Source of the DNA: Chitinispirillum alkaliphilum
GTDB taxonomy: Bacteria; Fibrobacterota; Chitinivibrionia; Chitinivibrionales; Chitinispirillaceae
Direction of reading: 5' to 3'
Assembly: GCA_001045525.1 (NCBI GenBank)
Contig: LDWW01000006.1
Location: forward strand, 62,001 to 126,000
DNA: 64,000 nucleotides
Positions 55,388 to 63,999 of the stretch are shown one piece after another; the stretch's first letter is position 1; the number at the start of each line of letters is the position of its first letter. The translations under genes were made by a program, and so were the position numbers. Under the pieces are notes generated by a model. That model was not told the origin of the DNA and made no database searches. It saw nothing but the letters and a program-made list of their open reading frames with translations.

Positions 55388-55780
55388 ATGCAGGACAATG
55401 TCAGAACCGAACGAAACCGCCTGATCGCCGCCGCAAGAATCGCGGTAAAAAGGGATCCAAACCTGCGCAGTATTCTAAGGGAGATCTCTGAGGGTAATTC
55501 CAATATGGACAGCATTCAGGATATCCTCTCCCTCTCAAAACTGCTTCTGAATGTGTTGGATACGGTTTCCGGTATCGCAGTCGGTGGGGTTAAAATCGAT
55601 GAAGAACACCTGAACAGAAAAAGAGAGTGGGCAGGCGAAATCAAACAGATTCTTAACAAAGCCGATGCGCTGAGAAATGTACGGCAGGAGGAGATTATCT
55701 ACCGCAACAAGATAATTCTTCTGTGCCGCCAAGCTCAGGCTACTATCAACACCTGGCTTGATGCGGTCTTTTTTTTTTTT
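55388..55780 (+). pseudogene. Truncated copy of the 60290-61135 gene
   Basis: Nearly identical to 60632-61008 of the intact gene: similarity starts abruptly at GCAGGACAATGTCAG and ends abruptly at GATGCGGTCT, which is followed by T12 and then GCACGCAATGCGGGAAAACC, a variant of the sequence that begins the 85-bp array at 61342. So this copy came from a locus carrying gene plus array, with the stretch between deleted. Both gene ends are missing. Confidence 0.88.
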
Positions 55781-55819: not shown

Positions 55820-56466
55820 CTGACTCTTTTTTCGTGCCTTTCTTTTTTAACCACGAAACACACGAAATACTCGAAAGGGGAATAAAAATCATTATATCCT
55901 CCTCTTATTTTCGTGCTTTTCGTGTATTTCGTGGTTTGAATCTTTTACCACAAAACACACGTTTCCAAGAGCATTGCCGTTCTATCTTCCTCTTTTGTTT
56001 CGTGCCTTTCTTTTTTTACCACGAAACACACGAAACACTCGAAAGGGAAATAAAAATCATTGTATCTCCCTCTTATTTTCGTGCCTTTCGTGTATTTCGT
56101 GGTTTAAATTTTTTACCACAAAACACACGTTTTCAAGAGCATTGCCATTCTATCTTCCTCTTTTATCGTGTATTTCTTTTTTTACCACGAAACACACGAA
56201 ACACTCGAAAGGGAAATAAAAATCATTGTATCTCCCTCTTATTTTCGTGCCTTTCGTGTATTTCGTGGTTTAAATTTTTTACCACAAAACACACGTTTTC
56301 AAGAGCATTGCCATTCTATCTTCCTCTTTTATCGTGTATTTCTTTTTTTACCACGAAACACACGAAATACTCGAAAGGGGAATAAAAATCATTAGGATCC
56401 TCCTCTTATTTTCGTGCTTTTCGTGTATTTCGTGGTTTGAATCTTTTACCACAAAACACACGTTTT
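55820..56466. repeat. 166-bp tandem array of TTTCGTG-type hairpin repeats
   Basis: ACCACGAAACACACGAAA recurs at 55850, 56018, 56184 and 56350 (periods 168, 166, 166). Each unit has the hairpin arms of the family plus an extra block CCACAAAACACACGTTTTCAAG. The array ends inside the argC fragment, whose 3' part is missing. Confidence 0.9.
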
Positions 56467-56847
56467 CAAGATACAGATATTGAAACCCGTTGCATAACAT
56501 CCAGGTACACTTACCCTTTTTGAATTTCTGATTTTTTCCCGCTGCGCTTTGTTGAGTTCAGGGATTCCATACTCCCAATCAGGTGCAACGCGGTGAGCGG
56601 TACTGGGATCAAGAACGCGCACATTTTCATTCTGGATTAAAGAAACGCTCTCCCTGGCAGCATCATCCGGAAGACAAAGAAAAACAATATCAACTGAATT
56701 GAGGATCTCTTTTTTAACATCAAGATCTTTTTTGTGTTCGATTGGGATTTCAACCAACTCGATATCTTCCCTGTTAATTAACCTACTATGAATTTTGAGA
56801 CCTGTAGTACCATGTTGTCCATCTATGAAAACTTTGGTTTTGTTCAT
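56446..56847 (-). pseudogene. argC: 5' fragment of N-acetyl-gamma-glutamyl-phosphate reductase (type 2)
   Basis: The 133-codon frame begins like a type 2 ArgC (VFIDGQHGTTGLKIHSRL, the NAD(P)-binding loop, then FLCLPDDAA and SVPGCYATG with the catalytic Cys near residue 119). Full-length enzymes have about 310 residues. Directly after GCYATGF the frame runs into the 166-bp hairpin array and ends in unrelated residues, so about 180 residues are lost. ArgC makes N-acetylglutamate semialdehyde in arginine synthesis; this fragment cannot. AGGAAC precedes the ATG. Confidence 0.88.
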
Positions 56848-56988: not shown

Positions 56989-57067
56989 TGTTAAGGTCAG
57001 ACTTTGTGGCGATTCTGGAACCGCGAAGCGGTGTTAAATTTGTCCGACAGCAGCGAATTATTATGCC
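56989..57067 (-). other. attC-like site of the VRR-NUC cassette
   Basis: Minus strand: GGCATAATAATTCGCTGCTG (stop codon TAA inside), L''-like GTCGGAC (57048-57042), a central ACCGCTTCGCGGT hairpin, L'-like GTCTGAC (57002-56996) and a degenerate R' near TTAACAT. GTCGGAC pairs with GTCTGAC with one mismatch. Confidence 0.55.
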
Positions 57068-58272
57068 TTTTTGCTTTGCTGAACTTTAAAAATTGTTGCA
57101 TTAAACCCCATGTGGGCATGATTGCCCAAAAACCAGTTTTTTTGATCTTCACTTAGTTTGTCGTTTTTTGACTTAACTTCAACGAATCGGATCTCACAGT
57201 CATTATGGATCAATAAATCAGGCCATCCACAAAAGTTTTTCCAATAATCCATCGACAAGTAATGAAGTACTTTCTTTAAATTTTCTAACCCAAGTACACG
57301 CATTACTTCTTTGGCTTTTGCAACATCACTATCACGGTGCGCCCAAAGATACTGCCTAAGACCTGAACTATGACCAAGCCAATAATCGAATAACCATTCA
57401 AGATCATCTAATTTATCTATGTGCCGGCTTATTAACTCTCTTTGCCTTTCGTAGTACAATTTACTTCCGAAGTCATCTGGAAGGATTGTAGATATGCGGC
57501 CTTCCTCCGACCTATCGCTATCAAAATCATTTCTGCTTCCAAACTGAACAAGACGCCCCTTTTCATCTCCAACATCTTGAATAACGAGAAACATGAAAAC
57601 ACCAAATAAGACGTGAAAGGGCACGCTCTCAACATGCATCACGCTAAATCCGAGGTTCTTAAAATAACGAGATGCAAATTCTTCTACAGTGACAATATCA
57701 TTACCGTCTTGAATACCTACCTTTTTCCCTTCATTTTTTATGTGTTCAGCCTTAACAAGAATAACCTCAGTGTTCGTTTGAGATATAACTTCAGACTGAG
57801 ATAGCTCGTTGTAATGATATTTAGGGGAAATTTCATGAACCTTTTTGATTTTTTCAATAACCTGCTTTTCTATGAGTTTCCGCTCCTCCGGGAAACTAAA
57901 CTCAGAGAAGCTATTCGGATTGATCTCTGGATGCGAATCATAAAATCTCCTGGTAGTCTCAAAGAATATTTCACGCCAGTAATACCTGACTATCTTTGAA
58001 GTTGCCCCATGCACAGGAGCTTTGGGGGCGGCTTCGGGTTTTTCTCCCCTGCATTCAGGACAAGTATTGTGTTGAAATCCAAGTGTGACGGCTACCTTTT
58101 CTCTGGAACCATACCAAGTACCAAAATGAAGCTGGTAGGGCAAGAACCGTTCCCCGTGCTCCTTATCACAGGAGCACATCATCACCTCTTTACAAAACTC
58201 ACACTGGTATTTGCGAATCAAGTCGTATTGGTTTAAGCATTTTAGCGATGGGTGCGTGCATTTTTGGATCAT
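57061..58272 (-). CDS. VRR-NUC-type nuclease-domain protein in an integron-like cassette
   Basis: A 403-residue protein. The N-terminal 90 residues contain several Cys (YQCEFCKEVMMCSCDKEHG, TCPECRG) that could form a zinc ribbon. The middle (about 100-330) is unrecognised and helical. The C-terminus (about 345-400) is a PD-(D/E)xK nuclease of the VRR-NUC type: GWPDLLIHND, FVEVKSKNDKLSEDQKNWF. Such nucleases occur in repair and defence genes. No Shine-Dalgarno is seen; the start follows the GTTATGC core box (58280-58286) by eight bases, and the stop lies inside an attC-like R'' box, as in integron cassettes. Confidence 0.8.
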   Translation of the reverse strand: MIQKCTHPSLKCLNQYDLIRKYQCEFCKEVMMCSCDKEHGERFLPYQLHFGTWYGSREKVAVTLGFQHNTCPECRGEKPEAAPKAPVHGATSKIVRYYWREIFFETTRRFYDSHPEINPNSFSEFSFPEERKLIEKQVIEKIKKVHEISPKYHYNELSQSEVISQTNTEVILVKAEHIKNEGKKVGIQDGNDIVTVEEFASRYFKNLGFSVMHVESVPFHVLFGVFMFLVIQDVGDEKGRLVQFGSRNDFDSDRSEEGRISTILPDDFGSKLYYERQRELISRHIDKLDDLEWLFDYWLGHSSGLRQYLWAHRDSDVAKAKEVMRVLGLENLKKVLHYLSMDYWKNFCGWPDLLIHNDCEIRFVEVKSKNDKLSEDQKNWFLGNHAHMGFNATIFKVQQSKKA

Positions 58273-58279
58273 AATTTAT

Positions 58280-58286
58280 GCATAAC
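58280..58286 (-). other. Core recombination box GTTATGC before the VRR-NUC gene
   Basis: GGCGTTATGC on the minus strand, a textbook-like R' core (GTTRNRY) directly upstream of the gene. It would be the cassette's 5' boundary; the 135 bases between here and 58421 may be a short cassette without a gene. Confidence 0.5.
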
Positions 58287-58420
58287 GCCTTGCTCTGCGG
58301 CAAAATTTAAAGGTAACGGAAAATTTGTCCATCTTTAGTTCTTTATCAAACGTCATTTGCCCTGAAATTTCCAGATAAATCAGTTTCACCGTCGGATATA
58401 GCCAGTGCGCTTCTCCTTTG

Positions 58421-58476
58421 CCCTAACGCGCTAATAAGCCAACGCGTTAGCGGTCGGCTAAATTGAGTTGTTATGG
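58421..58476 (-). other. attC-like site of the small membrane-protein cassette
   Basis: Minus strand: R'' CCATAAC (58476-58470, including the gene's stop TAA), AATTTAGCC, a loop with CGCTAACGCG, GGCTTATT, and R' GTTAGGG (58427-58421). R'' and R' are complementary with one mismatch, and AGCC pairs with GGCT. The length, 56 bases, is typical of a short attC. Confidence 0.65.
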
Positions 58477-59013
58477 TTCTGGTTCAACCAAATTTTGAAT
58501 CATCCGGTCATAGTTGCGTTCCCGTAACTTTAGTGTCAAAATAGATGTACAGAACAGAAAGAATATAAATCCGGCTACGGCAACAGAACCTTGACCAAAG
58601 ACAAATATGGCTAGTGAGCCAAGCGCCAACACACCAAAAAATCCTATAAAAATTCTTGTGATCCACTTATTGATGGACTTGAAAACGTCATTTCTGGCTA
58701 TACCGGCATATCTAAATTCGCCTTCGCTATATGACACCATTCCGGGCGTTTTCTTCAAAGCATAGATAATCTTGGAGCATTGATCGTTTTGAACAAGCTC
58801 CGTGATATCGGCGTAACTCATCCGGAGCCCGTGAATCAACCAGAATAGCTCAGTTACTGAATGAATGCTCTTCCGTGAAACGGCTTCTTCAAATTTTCCC
58901 ACAAGGTCAGCTCGTAATTTCTTCGTTTGTCCAAGATTGTAGGATATGAGCATAACTGTCCCTAGTGAGGATATTAGTCCAAAGGCAAGTTTGGAGATTA
59001 GTTCTAGATCCAT
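58471..59013 (-). CDS. Small membrane protein in an integron-like cassette
   Basis: A 180-residue protein with a membrane segment near the N-terminus (about 5-27) and two closely spaced segments (about 118-138 and 142-160), with a charged cytoplasmic domain between (about 30-110, including the SYSEGEFRYAGIARND motif). No family recognised. AGGAG lies six bases before the ATG. The upstream boundary is the attC-like site 59029-59090, and the stop TAA is part of the next attC-like R'' box. Functions of such cassette proteins are mostly unknown. Confidence 0.75.
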   Translation of the reverse strand: MDLELISKLAFGLISSLGTVMLISYNLGQTKKLRADLVGKFEEAVSRKSIHSVTELFWLIHGLRMSYADITELVQNDQCSKIIYALKKTPGMVSYSEGEFRYAGIARNDVFKSINKWITRIFIGFFGVLALGSLAIFVFGQGSVAVAGFIFFLFCTSILTLKLRERNYDRMIQNLVEPEP

Positions 59014-59028
59014 TCGTTACTCCTTTTG

Positions 59029-59090
59029 CATAATGCCAAGCTAAGCGGTGCAATTGACAGGAGCATCCGCTTGAACGTCGCGTTAGGTGT
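59029..59090 (-). other. attC-like site of the HEPN-motif cassette
   Basis: Minus strand: R'' CACCTAAC (59089-59082, containing the gene's stop TAA), then AAGCGG-A-TGC, a 14-base loop, and GCACCGCTT, then an R'-like ATTATGC (59034-59028). The arms AAGCGGTGC and GCACCGCTT pair over nine bases with one unpaired A, the extrahelical base that is a hallmark of integron attC sites. Confidence 0.7.
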
Positions 59091-59649
59091 GCTTTTTAGT
59101 GAATTCATTGTAGTAATAACCCTCTTTTGGCTCGTTACCCAGCGCTATATCCAGCATCAATTGTAAACTCCATATCGGTCCAAGGATTACTTTTTCCGGA
59201 TCTATATTTTCTGGCACCATATCTGGATTAATTACCATTTCAAAATTAATTAACCACCATTTTTCAATTTCCCAAAAAAGGGCTATAAGCTCCTGAAATT
59301 TTTCAACATCTAAGTTTTTTTTGGCATCTGAGATAAAACTATGAAGCTCATGGGTTACTTCATTCCTGTGCTTTCGTATGGCATCAAATGTTTTAATATC
59401 TGTATCATCAATAGCCCCCATTTCCTTAAACCAGAGCAATGATGAGTATAGAGGGCTTTTGGATCTTGACAGTACTTCTGACTTGTACTGGTCGTGATCA
59501 AAACCATCCGAAAAAAAAATCTCTGGTTTCTCAATGATACGATTCTTGAACATTTCGAAGGCTGTGATGAATAGCGAAATAGCAACCAAGTTTCCTCTCA
59601 AGGATTCTGGGTGTAAAAACTTCTCCCAAGATTTCTGCGACTCTTCCAT
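59083..59649 (-). CDS. Hypothetical protein with HEPN-like RNxxxH motif, in an integron-like cassette
   Basis: About 188 helical residues from ATG 59649; TTG 59655 is the alternative and has GTTAGGTG as a possible ribosome site. The segment IRKHRNEVTHEL contains RNEVTH (R95, N96, H100), matching the R-N-x3-H ribonuclease signature of HEPN domains, which occur in many RNA-cutting toxins and defence proteins. The rest is not recognised. The cassette starts at the core box 59661-59667 and ends at the attC-like site 59029-59090. No antitoxin-like partner is adjacent, apart from the small membrane protein of the next cassette. Confidence 0.7.
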   Translation of the reverse strand: MEESQKSWEKFLHPESLRGNLVAISLFITAFEMFKNRIIEKPEIFFSDGFDHDQYKSEVLSRSKSPLYSSLLWFKEMGAIDDTDIKTFDAIRKHRNEVTHELHSFISDAKKNLDVEKFQELIALFWEIEKWWLINFEMVINPDMVPENIDPEKVILGPIWSLQLMLDIALGNEPKEGYYYNEFTKKHT

Positions 59650-59660
59650 TTTCAATGCAC

Positions 59661-59667
59661 ACCTAAC
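59661..59667 (-). other. Core recombination box GTTAGGT before the HEPN-motif gene
   Basis: GTTAGGT on the minus strand, a consensus R' core box 12 bases before the ATG. Beyond it (59700 upwards) the sequence changes to repeat R1, so this is the likely 5' edge of the cassette array. Confidence 0.5.
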
Positions 59668-59781
59668 AAAAGCAAAGCTTGCTCTTCATGACTACCTAAT
59701 CTATGTTTCGTATTAATTGTTAATTTTTTACTACTATTGCATTTAATCAAATCATCACTTTGTATATATAGACTAAACCAC

Positions 59782-60172
59782 ACTCCACAACCCAATATCT
59801 TCTCGGACGGAATCTGAAAGCAGGCAAGCAATAAGAAGTTCTTCAGGCGGTACAGAATTCGGCCACTTTTAAAGGCTAAAAGACGAAATTGAAATTAAAA
59901 GTAATAAATGTTTCTATTCTCCATCAACAACCACTGTAAAGGTATAATATACATTTAATAAGGTTATGACAATTGGAAAATTGATAAATATCCCATAATT
60001 CTATCTTTCCCTCCTCAGGTATTTACTCCCCCAGTGTCCAAAAAACATATTTACTAAAAGTATCCATTCTCTTTCCCGGTTATAAATTCACAAACATTTC
60101 AATTCTCAGAAGTACTTTTCAATTCGGGGAATTATCCCCTGTCTCAAATTCTCTCAGAAGTATTACAATTGC
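59782..60172. repeat. Dispersed repeat R1, copy 3, upstream of the 60290 gene
   Basis: The fullest partner of copy 1: both share ATCTGAAAGCAGGCAA-like, GGTACAGAATTCGGCCA, CACTGTAAAGGTATAATATA and, at the far end, CTCTC...GAAGTATTACAATTGC. It ends 118 bases before the start of the lineage-specific gene. TATAAT-like boxes inside could act as promoter elements. Confidence 0.75.
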
Positions 60173-60289
60173 AAATTGCCGGCAGTTACGTACTACCGGC
60201 CTATTCAACAGGGTAGCGGTTTTTCTGCGTTTTCAGATTCAGAAAAAAACCTGCCTGAAACTTATAATCCTTTTTATGGAGGTTGTTTT

Positions 60290-61135
60290 ATGCCCGTTAT
60301 GGATTTGCACGAAGATGTACAGGATATTATTGAAGTGAGTGAAGAGGAGCTTCTTGATATGCCGGAGACTGCCGGTACTATCGAACAGAAGGTTGCAGAG
60401 ATCAGGGGTAAAGTTGCTCAGCCGCACATGCCGGTGACCATCTTTGTGGCTGAATTTGGTAAAGACCTGGCACACATGGAGCAGGACAGGGATGCATGGA
60501 TTGCATGCGGATTCGACTGGGCAGACTTTGACTACTATAAGGAGCTGCACAAGGAGCTTTTCAGGGCAAACTCAAGTGTTGTGGTCAACAGAGAGAATGT
60601 TTCTTCTGCGGTACGGGAGTGGCAAAAAGAGCAGGACAATGTCAGAACCGAACGAAACCGCCTGATCGCCGCTGCAAGAATCGCGGTTAAAAGGGATCCA
60701 AACCTGCGCAGTATTCTAAGAGAGATCTCTGAGGGCAATTCCAATATGGACAGCATTCAGGATATCCTCTCCCTCTCAAAACTGCTTCTGAATGTGTTGG
60801 ATACGGTTTCCGGTATCGCTGTCGGTGGGGTTAAAATCGATGAAGAACACCTGAACAGAAAAAGAGAGTGGGCAGGTGAAATCAAACAGATTCTGAACAA
60901 AGCCGATGCGCTGAGAAATGTACGGCAGGAGGAGATTGTCTATCGCAACAAGGTAATCATGCTGTGCCGCCAGGCTCAGGCTACTATCAACACGTGGCTT
61001 GATGCGGTCTATTTTGATGATCCGGATAAGAAGGCTAATTTTGCCAGTGATTATTTCAGACGATTACGCAACAATTCAAACAGATCCTCAAACAATCAGA
61101 CTCCCGCAGAACAGCCGATGAATACTGATCTGTAG
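60290..61135 (+). CDS. Lineage-specific protein of unknown function, parent of two truncated copies
   Basis: A 281-residue protein from ATG 60290, preceded by GGAGG at normal spacing (an open frame extends back to 60176). It is acidic at the N-terminus (EVSEEELLDMPET), with a central helical region and likely coiled coil (about 105-220, EWQKEQDNVRTERNRLIAAA, EHLNRKREWAGEIKQIL). A short hydrophobic stretch (LLNVLDTVSGIAVGGV, about 165-180) could be amphipathic. The C-terminus (NTWLDAVYFDDPDKKANF) is the best conserved part in the pseudogene copies at 41366 and 55388. No known family. Repeat R1 precedes it and the 85-bp array follows. Confidence 0.75.
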   Translation: MPVMDLHEDVQDIIEVSEEELLDMPETAGTIEQKVAEIRGKVAQPHMPVTIFVAEFGKDLAHMEQDRDAWIACGFDWADFDYYKELHKELFRANSSVVVNRENVSSAVREWQKEQDNVRTERNRLIAAARIAVKRDPNLRSILREISEGNSNMDSIQDILSLSKLLLNVLDTVSGIAVGGVKIDEEHLNRKREWAGEIKQILNKADALRNVRQEEIVYRNKVIMLCRQAQATINTWLDAVYFDDPDKKANFASDYFRRLRNNSNRSSNNQTPAEQPMNTDL

Positions 61136-61354
61136 GGGAAAAGAAGTGTATAGTGCCGGATGCCGGAGGCAGAGTGTTGGAGTAACACCTGAAATTTTTG
61201 GGTTCACTGCCGCCTTTGCCCCCCTTCCGGCCTCTTAATCTGTCCTGATGCGATTACACTGCAAGCTGTCCCCCTCCCCCTTTCCTTTTATCCCTCTTTT
61301 TATCAGCCTTTTGCTCTCTGATATGTGCAGTGGGCCAATTTGGTACGCAATGGC

Positions 61355-61817
61355 GGGAAATCCGGCGCTGTGGGTGCCACTTTCGGTGCAGTGGAGGGTC
61401 GGTTTGCCTGCAGTGGGTACTGTTTTTCGCGCTGTGACAAGGAAATCCGGCGCTGTGGGTGTCACTTTCGGTGCAGTGGAGGGTCGGTTTGCCTGCAGTG
61501 GGCACTGTTTTTCGCGCTGTGACAAGGATATCCGGCGCTGTGGGTGCCACTTTAGGCGCTGTGGAGGGTCGGTTTGCCTGCAGTGGGTACTGTTTTTCGC
61601 GCGGTGTCAAGGAAATCCGGCGCTGTGGGTGCCACTTTCGGTGCAGTGGAGGGTCGGTTTGCCTGCAGTGGGTACTATTTTTCGCGCAGTGTCAATGAAA
61701 TCCGGCGCTGTGGGTGCCACTTTAGGTGCAGTGGAGGGTCGGTTTACCTGCAGTGGGTACTGATTTTCGCGCTGTGACAAGGAAATCCGGCGCTGTGGGT
61801 GCAACTTTCGGTGCTGT
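61355..61817. repeat. 85-bp tandem array with ~21-bp internal phasing
   Basis: TCCGGCGCTG recurs at 61361, 61446, 61531, 61616, 61701 and 61786, an exact 85-base period. Within a unit GC(T/A)GTG recurs every 21, 22, 21 and 21 bases, so the unit is itself a fourfold repeat close to two helical turns. Units differ by a few substitutions. Several long frames are open on both strands (for example 61248-61763), but the period shifts frame from unit to unit and no ribosome site fits, so this is probably not coding. Confidence 0.92.
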
Positions 61818-62063
61818 GTTCGTGAATCATCAAATAACGAATGGCGCTTATTAGAATATTAATGTCGATTACCATCCTGGCGGTTTCACACTAGCTCAAG
61901 CCTACCAACTCGGTTATTTCCTGACTGATTGTACCGATGGCCGACCCGGATTTCCTTTGAATCGCCGGGTGAATTCAACTCTTTTTTGTCAACCCCAAGA
62001 GTAGAATAAAGAACTCTTAACGAGCTTATGATGGCGATTTTCTGATAGTAAAATCACGAAACC

Positions 62064-62389: not shown

Positions 62390-63145
62390 CTATTTATCCC
62401 TCAATTTCAATAGTTCATCATCCAAACCGTAGCGGACGACATCGATGGTATTGCTCTGCTGAGAGATGTAGTCGCCAGTCAAAACAGGCAATTGAAACGG
62501 GAAGAATGCTGGGTTGTTTTTCAATAATCCAAGGGTGACTTTTCCTTCTTTATCGGCATACAGAGCAGCCTCGTATAAAAGTATTGTGAGGTTCGGTTCA
62601 CTGATTTCCATCGGTTTGCATTGTTCATAGCAGCCCTTGATCTTGGAATCCTCTAGCACGCCCCATGCGACAAAAGAGCGGATTGTGTATCGGGCATTCC
62701 TGGCCACCGTTTCCCTGTCGCCGTACTGCTCTTTGAGGCGGGAGAACACTTGAGCCTGCGTTATCTGATCCTGCAAATTGAAAAGCCTACCTGTCTGTTT
62801 TGCGACATTGAACCAGAAGGGATACGATGCAGAGATCACCGCCCAGTGGTACGGAAGCCAGTTTTGAGGACTCTCATTCCGAATAAGTGCGAGAGCATAA
62901 TCCCTGAAGGGAATTAAATCTTTGTCCGGCGCAAACCATGATGCGAGGATACTAATGGCCATGCCATACGTTTTTTTGCCTCGTTCGCCAGTACCGCCGC
63001 TTTGTTTCTGAATTGCTAAAAACTCGTCTAATTCAGCTCGAATCTCTTTTTCATTGAGACCGGCTAACATCATTTTGACGACATGATCCATCCAGTGTTT
63101 TTGAATGGTCTGCTTTATACCCAGTTTGTCGTGACGTTTGCTCAT
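62390..63145 (-). CDS. BrxA-like protein, terminal gene of a BREX-type defence locus
   Basis: A 251-residue helical protein that starts inside the stop codon of pglZ (ATGA overlap). Its position directly after pglZ fits the type 3 BREX order (brxF, brxC, pglXI, brxHII, pglZ, brxA). Features such as MMLAGLNEKEIRAELDEFL near the N-terminus and the RYTIRSFVAWGVLED winged-helix-like segment (about 157-171) resemble the DUF1819/BrxA layout, a small DNA-binding protein. The family match is from layout and context, not from a decisive motif, so another BREX accessory protein is possible. No gene follows before the non-coding hairpin stretch. Confidence 0.6.
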   Translation of the reverse strand: MSKRHDKLGIKQTIQKHWMDHVVKMMLAGLNEKEIRAELDEFLAIQKQSGGTGERGKKTYGMAISILASWFAPDKDLIPFRDYALALIRNESPQNWLPYHWAVISASYPFWFNVAKQTGRLFNLQDQITQAQVFSRLKEQYGDRETVARNARYTIRSFVAWGVLEDSKIKGCYEQCKPMEISEPNLTILLYEAALYADKEGKVTLGLLKNNPAFFPFQLPVLTGDYISQQSNTIDVVRYGLDDELLKLRDK

Positions 63146-63999
63146 TTTTGTGTCCTCTTTTCTACTTTGATCAGAGGCACAATTACTTCCTCGATAGCAA
63201 CACCTCCATGCCCGACAATTGAGTCGCCCTCATTAACAAATGCATCATTCCCAGTAGCAACTAATGGGAAATATTCGTCAGGCAGACCCGATGGCTGCCA
63301 TTCCCGTGCGGAGGTAAATGTTGAAGAGATACGTGAGCGCAGTTCCGGTGTTGGATATATGCGAACTCTTTCTCCACGACTCTCTGCAATCGCCCCTTCT
63401 GTTGGTCGTCCTTTCCCGCTCGACTCTATGTTGCCGTGGTCTGAAGTTATCCAGATTTCATAGCCATGATTGCTAAGATAATTAATAAGTGAAATCAGGT
63501 ATTCCCCTCTGCACCATTGGTCTATCTGGTTATGCATGCCTGCAGCTCCGAGCTGCATCCCATGCATGATCTTATCCACTTTATCTATCACCAAACCAAC
63601 AACCTTGGTTTGTGCCGGGTTGATTAAACTATCCATCGCGACTTCGGCATCACCATCTCCGAGACTGCGTTTATACGCTATATCCATCTTCGAAACGTCA
63701 TGGCTTTGCCAAAACTGTTTCCACAACTTCTCTTCGCTGTTTGTTGAGTTAATTGAAGACGGGAAATAGATGGGCGGCTTGCCTGAAAATATGGCTTGTC
63801 GTGAGACAGACGTAAGCGTAGGTATCCACGCAAACGTTGCTGACTCTCGCAGAACAAGATCACTGTTTTGTTTCTGGATTATGTTTCGAACTGTTACCCA
63901 TTGATCCAGCGAAAGACCATCTATAACCACCAGCGCGGCCTTTTTGCCCTTTTGGTCTTCTTCAATATATCGAGCCAGGTGTCGCGGTACATGGTGCAA
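63142..63999 (-). CDS. pglZ: PglZ-domain protein of a BREX-type defence locus (C-terminal part, continues past the window)
   Basis: The visible 285 residues are the C-terminal part of an alkaline-phosphatase-superfamily PglZ domain; the 5' end lies beyond 63999. Motifs include ALVVIDGLSLDQW (metal-binding Asp), WIPTLTSVSRQAIFSG (with the catalytic Thr/Ser), LVIDKVDKIMHG, the metal-binding SDHGN near residue 190 and VGHGGVAIEEVIVP at the end. PglZ is a core component of BREX phage-defence systems; together with the following BrxA-like gene the order resembles type 3 BREX. The methylase and ATPase genes would be expected outside the window. Confidence 0.85.
   Translation of the reverse strand: MHHVPRHLARYIEEDQKGKKAALVVIDGLSLDQWVTVRNIIQKQNSDLVLRESATFAWIPTLTSVSRQAIFSGKPPIYFPSSINSTNSEEKLWKQFWQSHDVSKMDIAYKRSLGDGDAEVAMDSLINPAQTKVVGLVIDKVDKIMHGMQLGAAGMHNQIDQWCRGEYLISLINYLSNHGYEIWITSDHGNIESSGKGRPTEGAIAESRGERVRIYPTPELRSRISSTFTSAREWQPSGLPDEYFPLVATGNDAFVNEGDSIVGHGGVAIEEVIVPLIKVEKRTQK

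Follow-up and report, generated by a model that had tools for sequence, protein, structure and literature searches.

An integron-type cassette array without a detectable integron integrase in the genome of Chitinispirillum alkaliphilum

Are the consecutive minus-strand genes at 56,989-59,667 of this stretch of DNA integron gene cassettes, and if so, what became of the integrase that would have assembled them? The integron integrase IntI recognises an attC site by its bottom strand in folded form, exchanges strands at the GTT core and captures circular cassettes. The window that we analysed is the whole stretch of 64,000 nucleotides (G000:C6:62001-126000), taken from a draft genome of 4.43 Mb in 160 contigs that is 98.9% complete. 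The original prediction, made from the letters alone, was of an integron-like cassette array with no integrase in view, in which three genes each end inside an R''-like box and are followed by a foldable site and an R'-like core.

Layout of the array and recognition of its attC sites

The genes, their stop codons and the R''-like and R'-like boxes were found where they had been placed. On the minus strand we distinguish three gene cassettes and one short geneless cassette, with four attC-type sites:

59657..59667, minus: 5' end of cassette A, GTTAGGTGTGC, the R' half that would remain from the previous crossover
59083..59655, minus: gene of cassette A, 190-aa HEPN-like protein with a conserved RNxxxHE motif
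59028..59088, minus: attC of cassette A, R'' ACCTAAC (including the TAA stop), R' ATTATGC
58471..59013, minus: gene of cassette B, 180-aa orphan protein, C-terminal half hydrophobic
58421..58476, minus: attC of cassette B, with R'' CCATAAC and R' GTTAGGG; of the four sites the closest to canonical form
58286..58426, minus: cassette X, about 141 bp, geneless or eroded, bounded by the crossover points GTTAGGG and GTTATGC
58280..58351, minus: attC of cassette X, with an intact R' (GTTATGC) and an eroded R'', aligning over its full extent with a Desulfocapsaceae attC
57061..58272, minus: gene of cassette C, 403-aa VRR-NUC nuclease-like protein (Pfam VRR_NUC, E=3e-11)
56989..57066, minus: decayed attC of cassette C, R'' GCATAAT at the stop, R' lost (CTTAACA)

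The 190-aa gene is listed from a TTG at 59655, an ATG two codons downstream being equally likely as its start. In cassettes A and B the TAA stop codon lies within the gene's own R'', and the 403-aa gene ends at GCATAAT. The attC-type sites number four and not three as originally predicted, the one at 58280-58351 having been missed. Read in order on the minus strand, the R' sequences are ATTATGC (59028), GTTAGGG (58421), GTTATGC (58280) and CTTAACA (56989), so that GTTAGGG and GTTATGC stand as R'-like cores, whereas the outermost site has none and ATTATGC is a mutated form in which the conserved GTT triplet is changed. When the sites were compared with the consensus sequences RYYYAAC for R'' and GTTRRRY for R', only 58421-58476 was found to retain both cores, intact or nearly so. 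We also considered an array on the plus strand, where 59028-59088 holds an intact GTTAGGT; it is contradicted by the strand of the genes, the position of the stop codons, the side of the bulge and the homologous cassettes described below.

To score the sites we used a script model composed of a core weight matrix and fixed-register pairs, which was trained on attC sites from plasmid integrons and from arrays adjoining integron integrases of the phylum, with no window sequence among them. The two highest scores on both strands of the 64 kb were those of 58421-58476 (23.4) and 59028-59088 (21.4), both on the minus strand, and the third-best score in the window was 19.9. In 200 dinucleotide-shuffled 64-kb windows, scores of 23.4 or more arose 7 times and scores of 21.4 or more 42 times in total; two matches anywhere in the same shuffled window occurred in 0 of 200 at the higher and in 4 of 200 at the lower value. 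Each score is thus unremarkable singly, and it is the pair in consecutive coding-strand spacers that is rare compared with shuffled windows. When 1.29 Mb of the genome, about 30% of it, was scanned with this model, five further isolated matches of at least 21.4 were obtained and no other pair or cluster.

The covariance models R2 and R3 were likewise built on real sites, none of them from the window; since MAFFT displaces the palindromic arms, the first covariance model was anchored with a temporary linker. The site at 58421-58476 was matched on the expected strand with E=0.028 by R1 (304 kb), and with 0.0019 by R2 and 0.0051 by R3 in the 64-kb window; in 10 kb the values were 0.0003-0.0008. 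With R3, 59028-59088 was ranked second (13.7 bits, E=0.1 in an unfiltered 10-kb search), which is below threshold, and with R2 it was third at 7.3 bits. Neither 58280-58351 nor 56989-57066 was matched by a covariance model, and both were recognised by comparison only. The array was to be given up if none of the three predicted sites matched an attC model; one of them did so significantly, another was second-best but sub-threshold, and the third was unmatched. Rfam holds no attC family and found nothing in the window. A genome-wide scan with R2 also returned nothing, although its filters dropped even the known 24-bit match of the window, and it is therefore uninformative on absence.

The stem that had been described at 59029-59090 was confirmed: nine base pairs (6+3, AAGCGG and TGC) with one extrahelical A, the bulge being in L''. 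The two best sites match the fixed register of reference attC in 4 of 6 and 5 of 5 inner pairs. Foldability by itself was a poor guide, as none of the four sites folded significantly better than shuffled DNA; the z values were -1.0 (58421), -1.2 (59028), +0.9 (58280) and +0.7 (56989), and 58280-58351 has no stable fold. By comparison, the intact attC of the Desulfocapsaceae locus L064 folds well against shuffled DNA (z -3.1). Because core bases are lost at two sites, the crossover triplet of a third is mutated and folding is weak, the array is probably decaying, and its features suggest that it would recombine poorly now.

An integron cassette starts with one half of the attC whose remainder closes it, and its 5' end is therefore expected to be complementary to its own R''. 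In cassette A, the 5' end GTTAGGTGTGC and the R'' sequence GCACACCTAAC (59082-59092) form an inverted match of 11 out of 11 bases; no second GTTA.../...TAAC inverted pair that is perfect over 11 bp occurs in the window at a spacing of 300-1500 bp. In cassettes B and C the agreement extends over about 6-7 bases.

Homologous cassettes in other phyla

The decisive evidence for cassettes comes from comparison with other bacteria. Among the other 167 genomes of the phylum that were searched, none has a relative of the 403-aa VRR-NUC gene. Relatives with 68-84% protein identity were found in two Marinobacter, in Nitrincola and Shewanella, and in Desulfocapsaceae, gammaproteobacterial and Halieaceae MAGs. 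DNA homology to the window begins in these seven loci at 58284, 58286, 58286, 58288, 58288 and 58290, and at 58301 in the Marinobacter locus L063; in six of the seven the start (58284-58290) is thus no more than about 3 bp away from the predicted crossover at 58286/58285. The 5' end of the cassette is TTATGCATAA or TTAGGCATAA in most loci, as in the window. At the other end, the Marinobacter cassette, gene and attC together, is 83.4% identical in DNA to the window over 1317 bp, and the homology runs through to 56992, which identifies the outermost site, 56989-57066, as a decayed attC. The sites of the Marinobacter copies are themselves partly eroded (5' core CTATG).

In at least three loci (L064, L066 and L069) a canonical attC lies 3' of the VRR-NUC stop codon, that of L064 scoring 34.7 bits (E=9e-6) with the covariance model. 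The window site 58280-58351 is 73% identical over 70 bp to this Desulfocapsaceae attC (L064:5217-5286), and the alignment makes 58286-58426 a short cassette that is geneless or eroded. In a more distant VRR-NUC relative from an Anaerolineae MAG the ends also match (GTTAGCCC / GGGCTAAC), while no attC match was found with the sphingomonad relatives.

For cassette A, a Salinivibrio protein is 43% identical to the 190-aa protein, and its gene has attC sites immediately upstream and lies inside an attC array; more distant relatives occur in two genomes of the phylum. The VRR-NUC cassette and, through this relative, the HEPN-like one are therefore found as discrete units in other integron arrays, which is not so for the 180-aa gene. 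No relative of the latter was found in 168 genomes of the phylum, in 369 genomes of Marinobacter's class or in plasmids, and it is by the sites on either side that cassette B is recognised. Viral contigs contained no relatives of the 180-aa or the 190-aa gene.

These comparisons bear on the alternative that three unrelated genes happen to be separated by chance attC-like intergenic hairpins. The folding, no better than that of shuffled sequence, and the 42 scores of at least 21.4 in shuffled windows would fit it, but the two top scores fall in consecutive coding-strand spacers, the 11-bp match between the ends of cassette A is unique and, most importantly, other phyla contain homologous cassettes whose ends coincide. 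We regard a chance origin as extremely improbable. The integron-like cassette array that had been proposed is borne out by the script model, the covariance model and the homologous cassettes alike.

Given that the VRR-NUC cassette is 83% identical in DNA to that of Marinobacter, which belongs to another phylum, such cassettes have crossed between very distant bacteria. Cassette sharing across phyla has already been described (PMC9668308). The present locus is a clean example, in which one cassette has both its boundaries defined to within a few bases and retains this identity between distant phyla. It also illustrates how scoring site by site misses such arrays, as two of the four sites could be recognised only against intact relatives.

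The search for an integrase

The genome assembly contained no match reaching the cut-off of the integron-integrase model TIGR02249 (265 bits), so that the absence of an integrase, which the original prediction had stated for what was in view, extends to the whole assembly. The contig that carries the array is 144 kb long, with ordinary sequence on either side of the array, and because the array is far from the contig ends, an adjoining integrase was not lost through an assembly break. No attI, Pc or intI remnant was recognised beside it.

The only recombinases found in the genome are proteins resembling XerC and XerD, one that is associated with IS91, and short remnants. The remnants are near-identical integron-integrase/XerA-like pieces at G000:C4:103035 (L004), C12:1184 (L006) and C81:1073 (L005), and a further piece, interrupted by a stop, lies at C27. 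The best match of the remnant protein is to the integron-integrase model (51.9 bits), but only across two short stretches. The remnants on C4, C81 and probably C12 contain in addition segments that match the extreme C-terminus, a pattern as if a single internally deleted copy had spread. Separately, a tyrosine recombinase gene at G000:C58:3282-3749 (L003) overlaps an IS91-type transposase gene, a pairing that recurs in a plasmid integron of Thiodictyon (L055) and next to the array in Salinivibrio (L075).

Integron integrases themselves (TIGR02249, E<=1e-40) were found in 18 of the 168 genomes of the phylum, one of them from the window genome's own family and with attC sites beside it. Cassette arrays had been called little documented in Fibrobacterota. 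We found no report of a CALIN (cluster of attC sites lacking an integrase) or an integron from this phylum in the literature searched, so that integron cassettes are documented here in a group without a report that we could find, but with these numbers the integrases cannot be called rare.

It could be argued that the integron is complete and that its integrase lies in an unassembled or unrecognised part of the genome. The genome is a draft, the contigs that carry integrases in relatives tend to be short, as they would be if arrays interrupt assemblies, and the four short remnants have the integron-integrase model as their best match. However, the array is embedded in its long contig with no IntI adjoining it and none above the cut-off genome-wide, and an integrase located elsewhere would work in trans. 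We consider a complete integron quite improbable.

For IntegronFinder 2, a CALIN requires no fewer than two attC sites (PMC9024848). By this two-attC rule, applied to sites from our script model, covariance models and homology, the locus qualifies: at least two nearby attC sites have the same orientation (the two top-ranked ones, with two more by homology) and no integron integrase is associated with them. CALINs are regarded as degraded integrons (PMC9024848), and integrases from elsewhere are still able to excise or capture their cassettes (PMC9668308). We therefore hold it very likely that this run of cassettes, in a genome where no integron integrase was found, is a CALIN. It most likely originated by IntI capture, followed by loss of the integrase or its action in trans, and by erosion. 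Each cassette would once have been a free circle that carried a single gene, without a promoter, and a single attC. An IntI would have folded the bottom strand of this attC as a hairpin, recombining it at G^TT either into this chromosome or into the array of an ancestor. The integrase would later have been lost, or would have acted from elsewhere, and the sites would have eroded since.

It is also possible, though less likely, that the cassettes entered one at a time at a fortuitous secondary site, through an integrase acting from a plasmid or phage or in a previous host, and that this chromosome never had an integron platform. The lack of a recognised attI or intI remnant by the array is in keeping with this, as are cassette genes that are foreign to the phylum; yet four tandem sites in the same orientation are more easily understood as an array, and integrases do exist in the same family.

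Neighbouring genes and comparison with known systems

To the right of the array, at 62390-63999 on the minus strand, lie brxA and the C-terminal part of pglZ, whose best match is a BREX-3 PglZ. RNxxxHE is the motif of HEPN ribonucleases, and integron cassettes are increasingly viewed as a store of phage-defence genes. The 190-aa protein gave weak matches to HEPN-type defence models and had no relative of known structure by sequence; the 180-aa protein of cassette B is probably membrane-bound, as its hydrophobic half would indicate. A nuclease-like and a HEPN-like gene beside BREX genes suggest a role of the cassette cargo in phage defence, and it is plausible that the array and the BREX genes together form a defence island. 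A wider proposal, which we make tentatively and put at somewhat less than an even chance, is that the phylum shares a pool of cassettes with marine Gammaproteobacteria and Desulfobacterota, and that the defence-like VRR-NUC cassette circulates across at least three phyla and was parked here, next to the BREX genes, as part of such an island.

Several repeats were noticed around the array. A 300-nt repeat flanks it with 98% identity (55390-55689 and 60631-60930, the left copy being truncated), further copies of parts of the right flank (59775-60180) are present at other places in the genome, and 61271-61903 is a tandem array with a period of 85 bp and copies up to 94% identical. At 55824-56471 a unit of 166-168 bp, which is rich in ACCACGAAACACACGAAA and looks like dispersed palindromic repeats, is present in 3-4 copies, and directly adjoining the array is a truncated N-terminal argC-like (semialdehyde dehydrogenase) fragment (56446-56847, minus).

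Compared with the sedentary chromosomal integrons of Vibrio and Xanthomonas, the locus has in common chromosomal cassettes of unassigned function together with attC sites, and complete integrons of this kind occur in the phylum; it differs in that it has no intI or recognised attI and four sites only, and in that its attC are mutually dissimilar and do not form a uniform family. The VRR-NUC cassette of Marinobacter (L063, L068), with its Desulfocapsaceae, Nitrincola and Halieaceae relatives, agrees with the window copy in gene and cassette boundaries, whereas the R' end of the attC has been lost in the window. With CALINs the locus shares tandem gene-attC units in the same orientation, no integrase found and few sites, as in degraded integrons, although its sites are more eroded than usual, one being significant, one borderline and two recognised by comparison only. 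The locus thus fits the known picture of a CALIN and adds a new host group to it.
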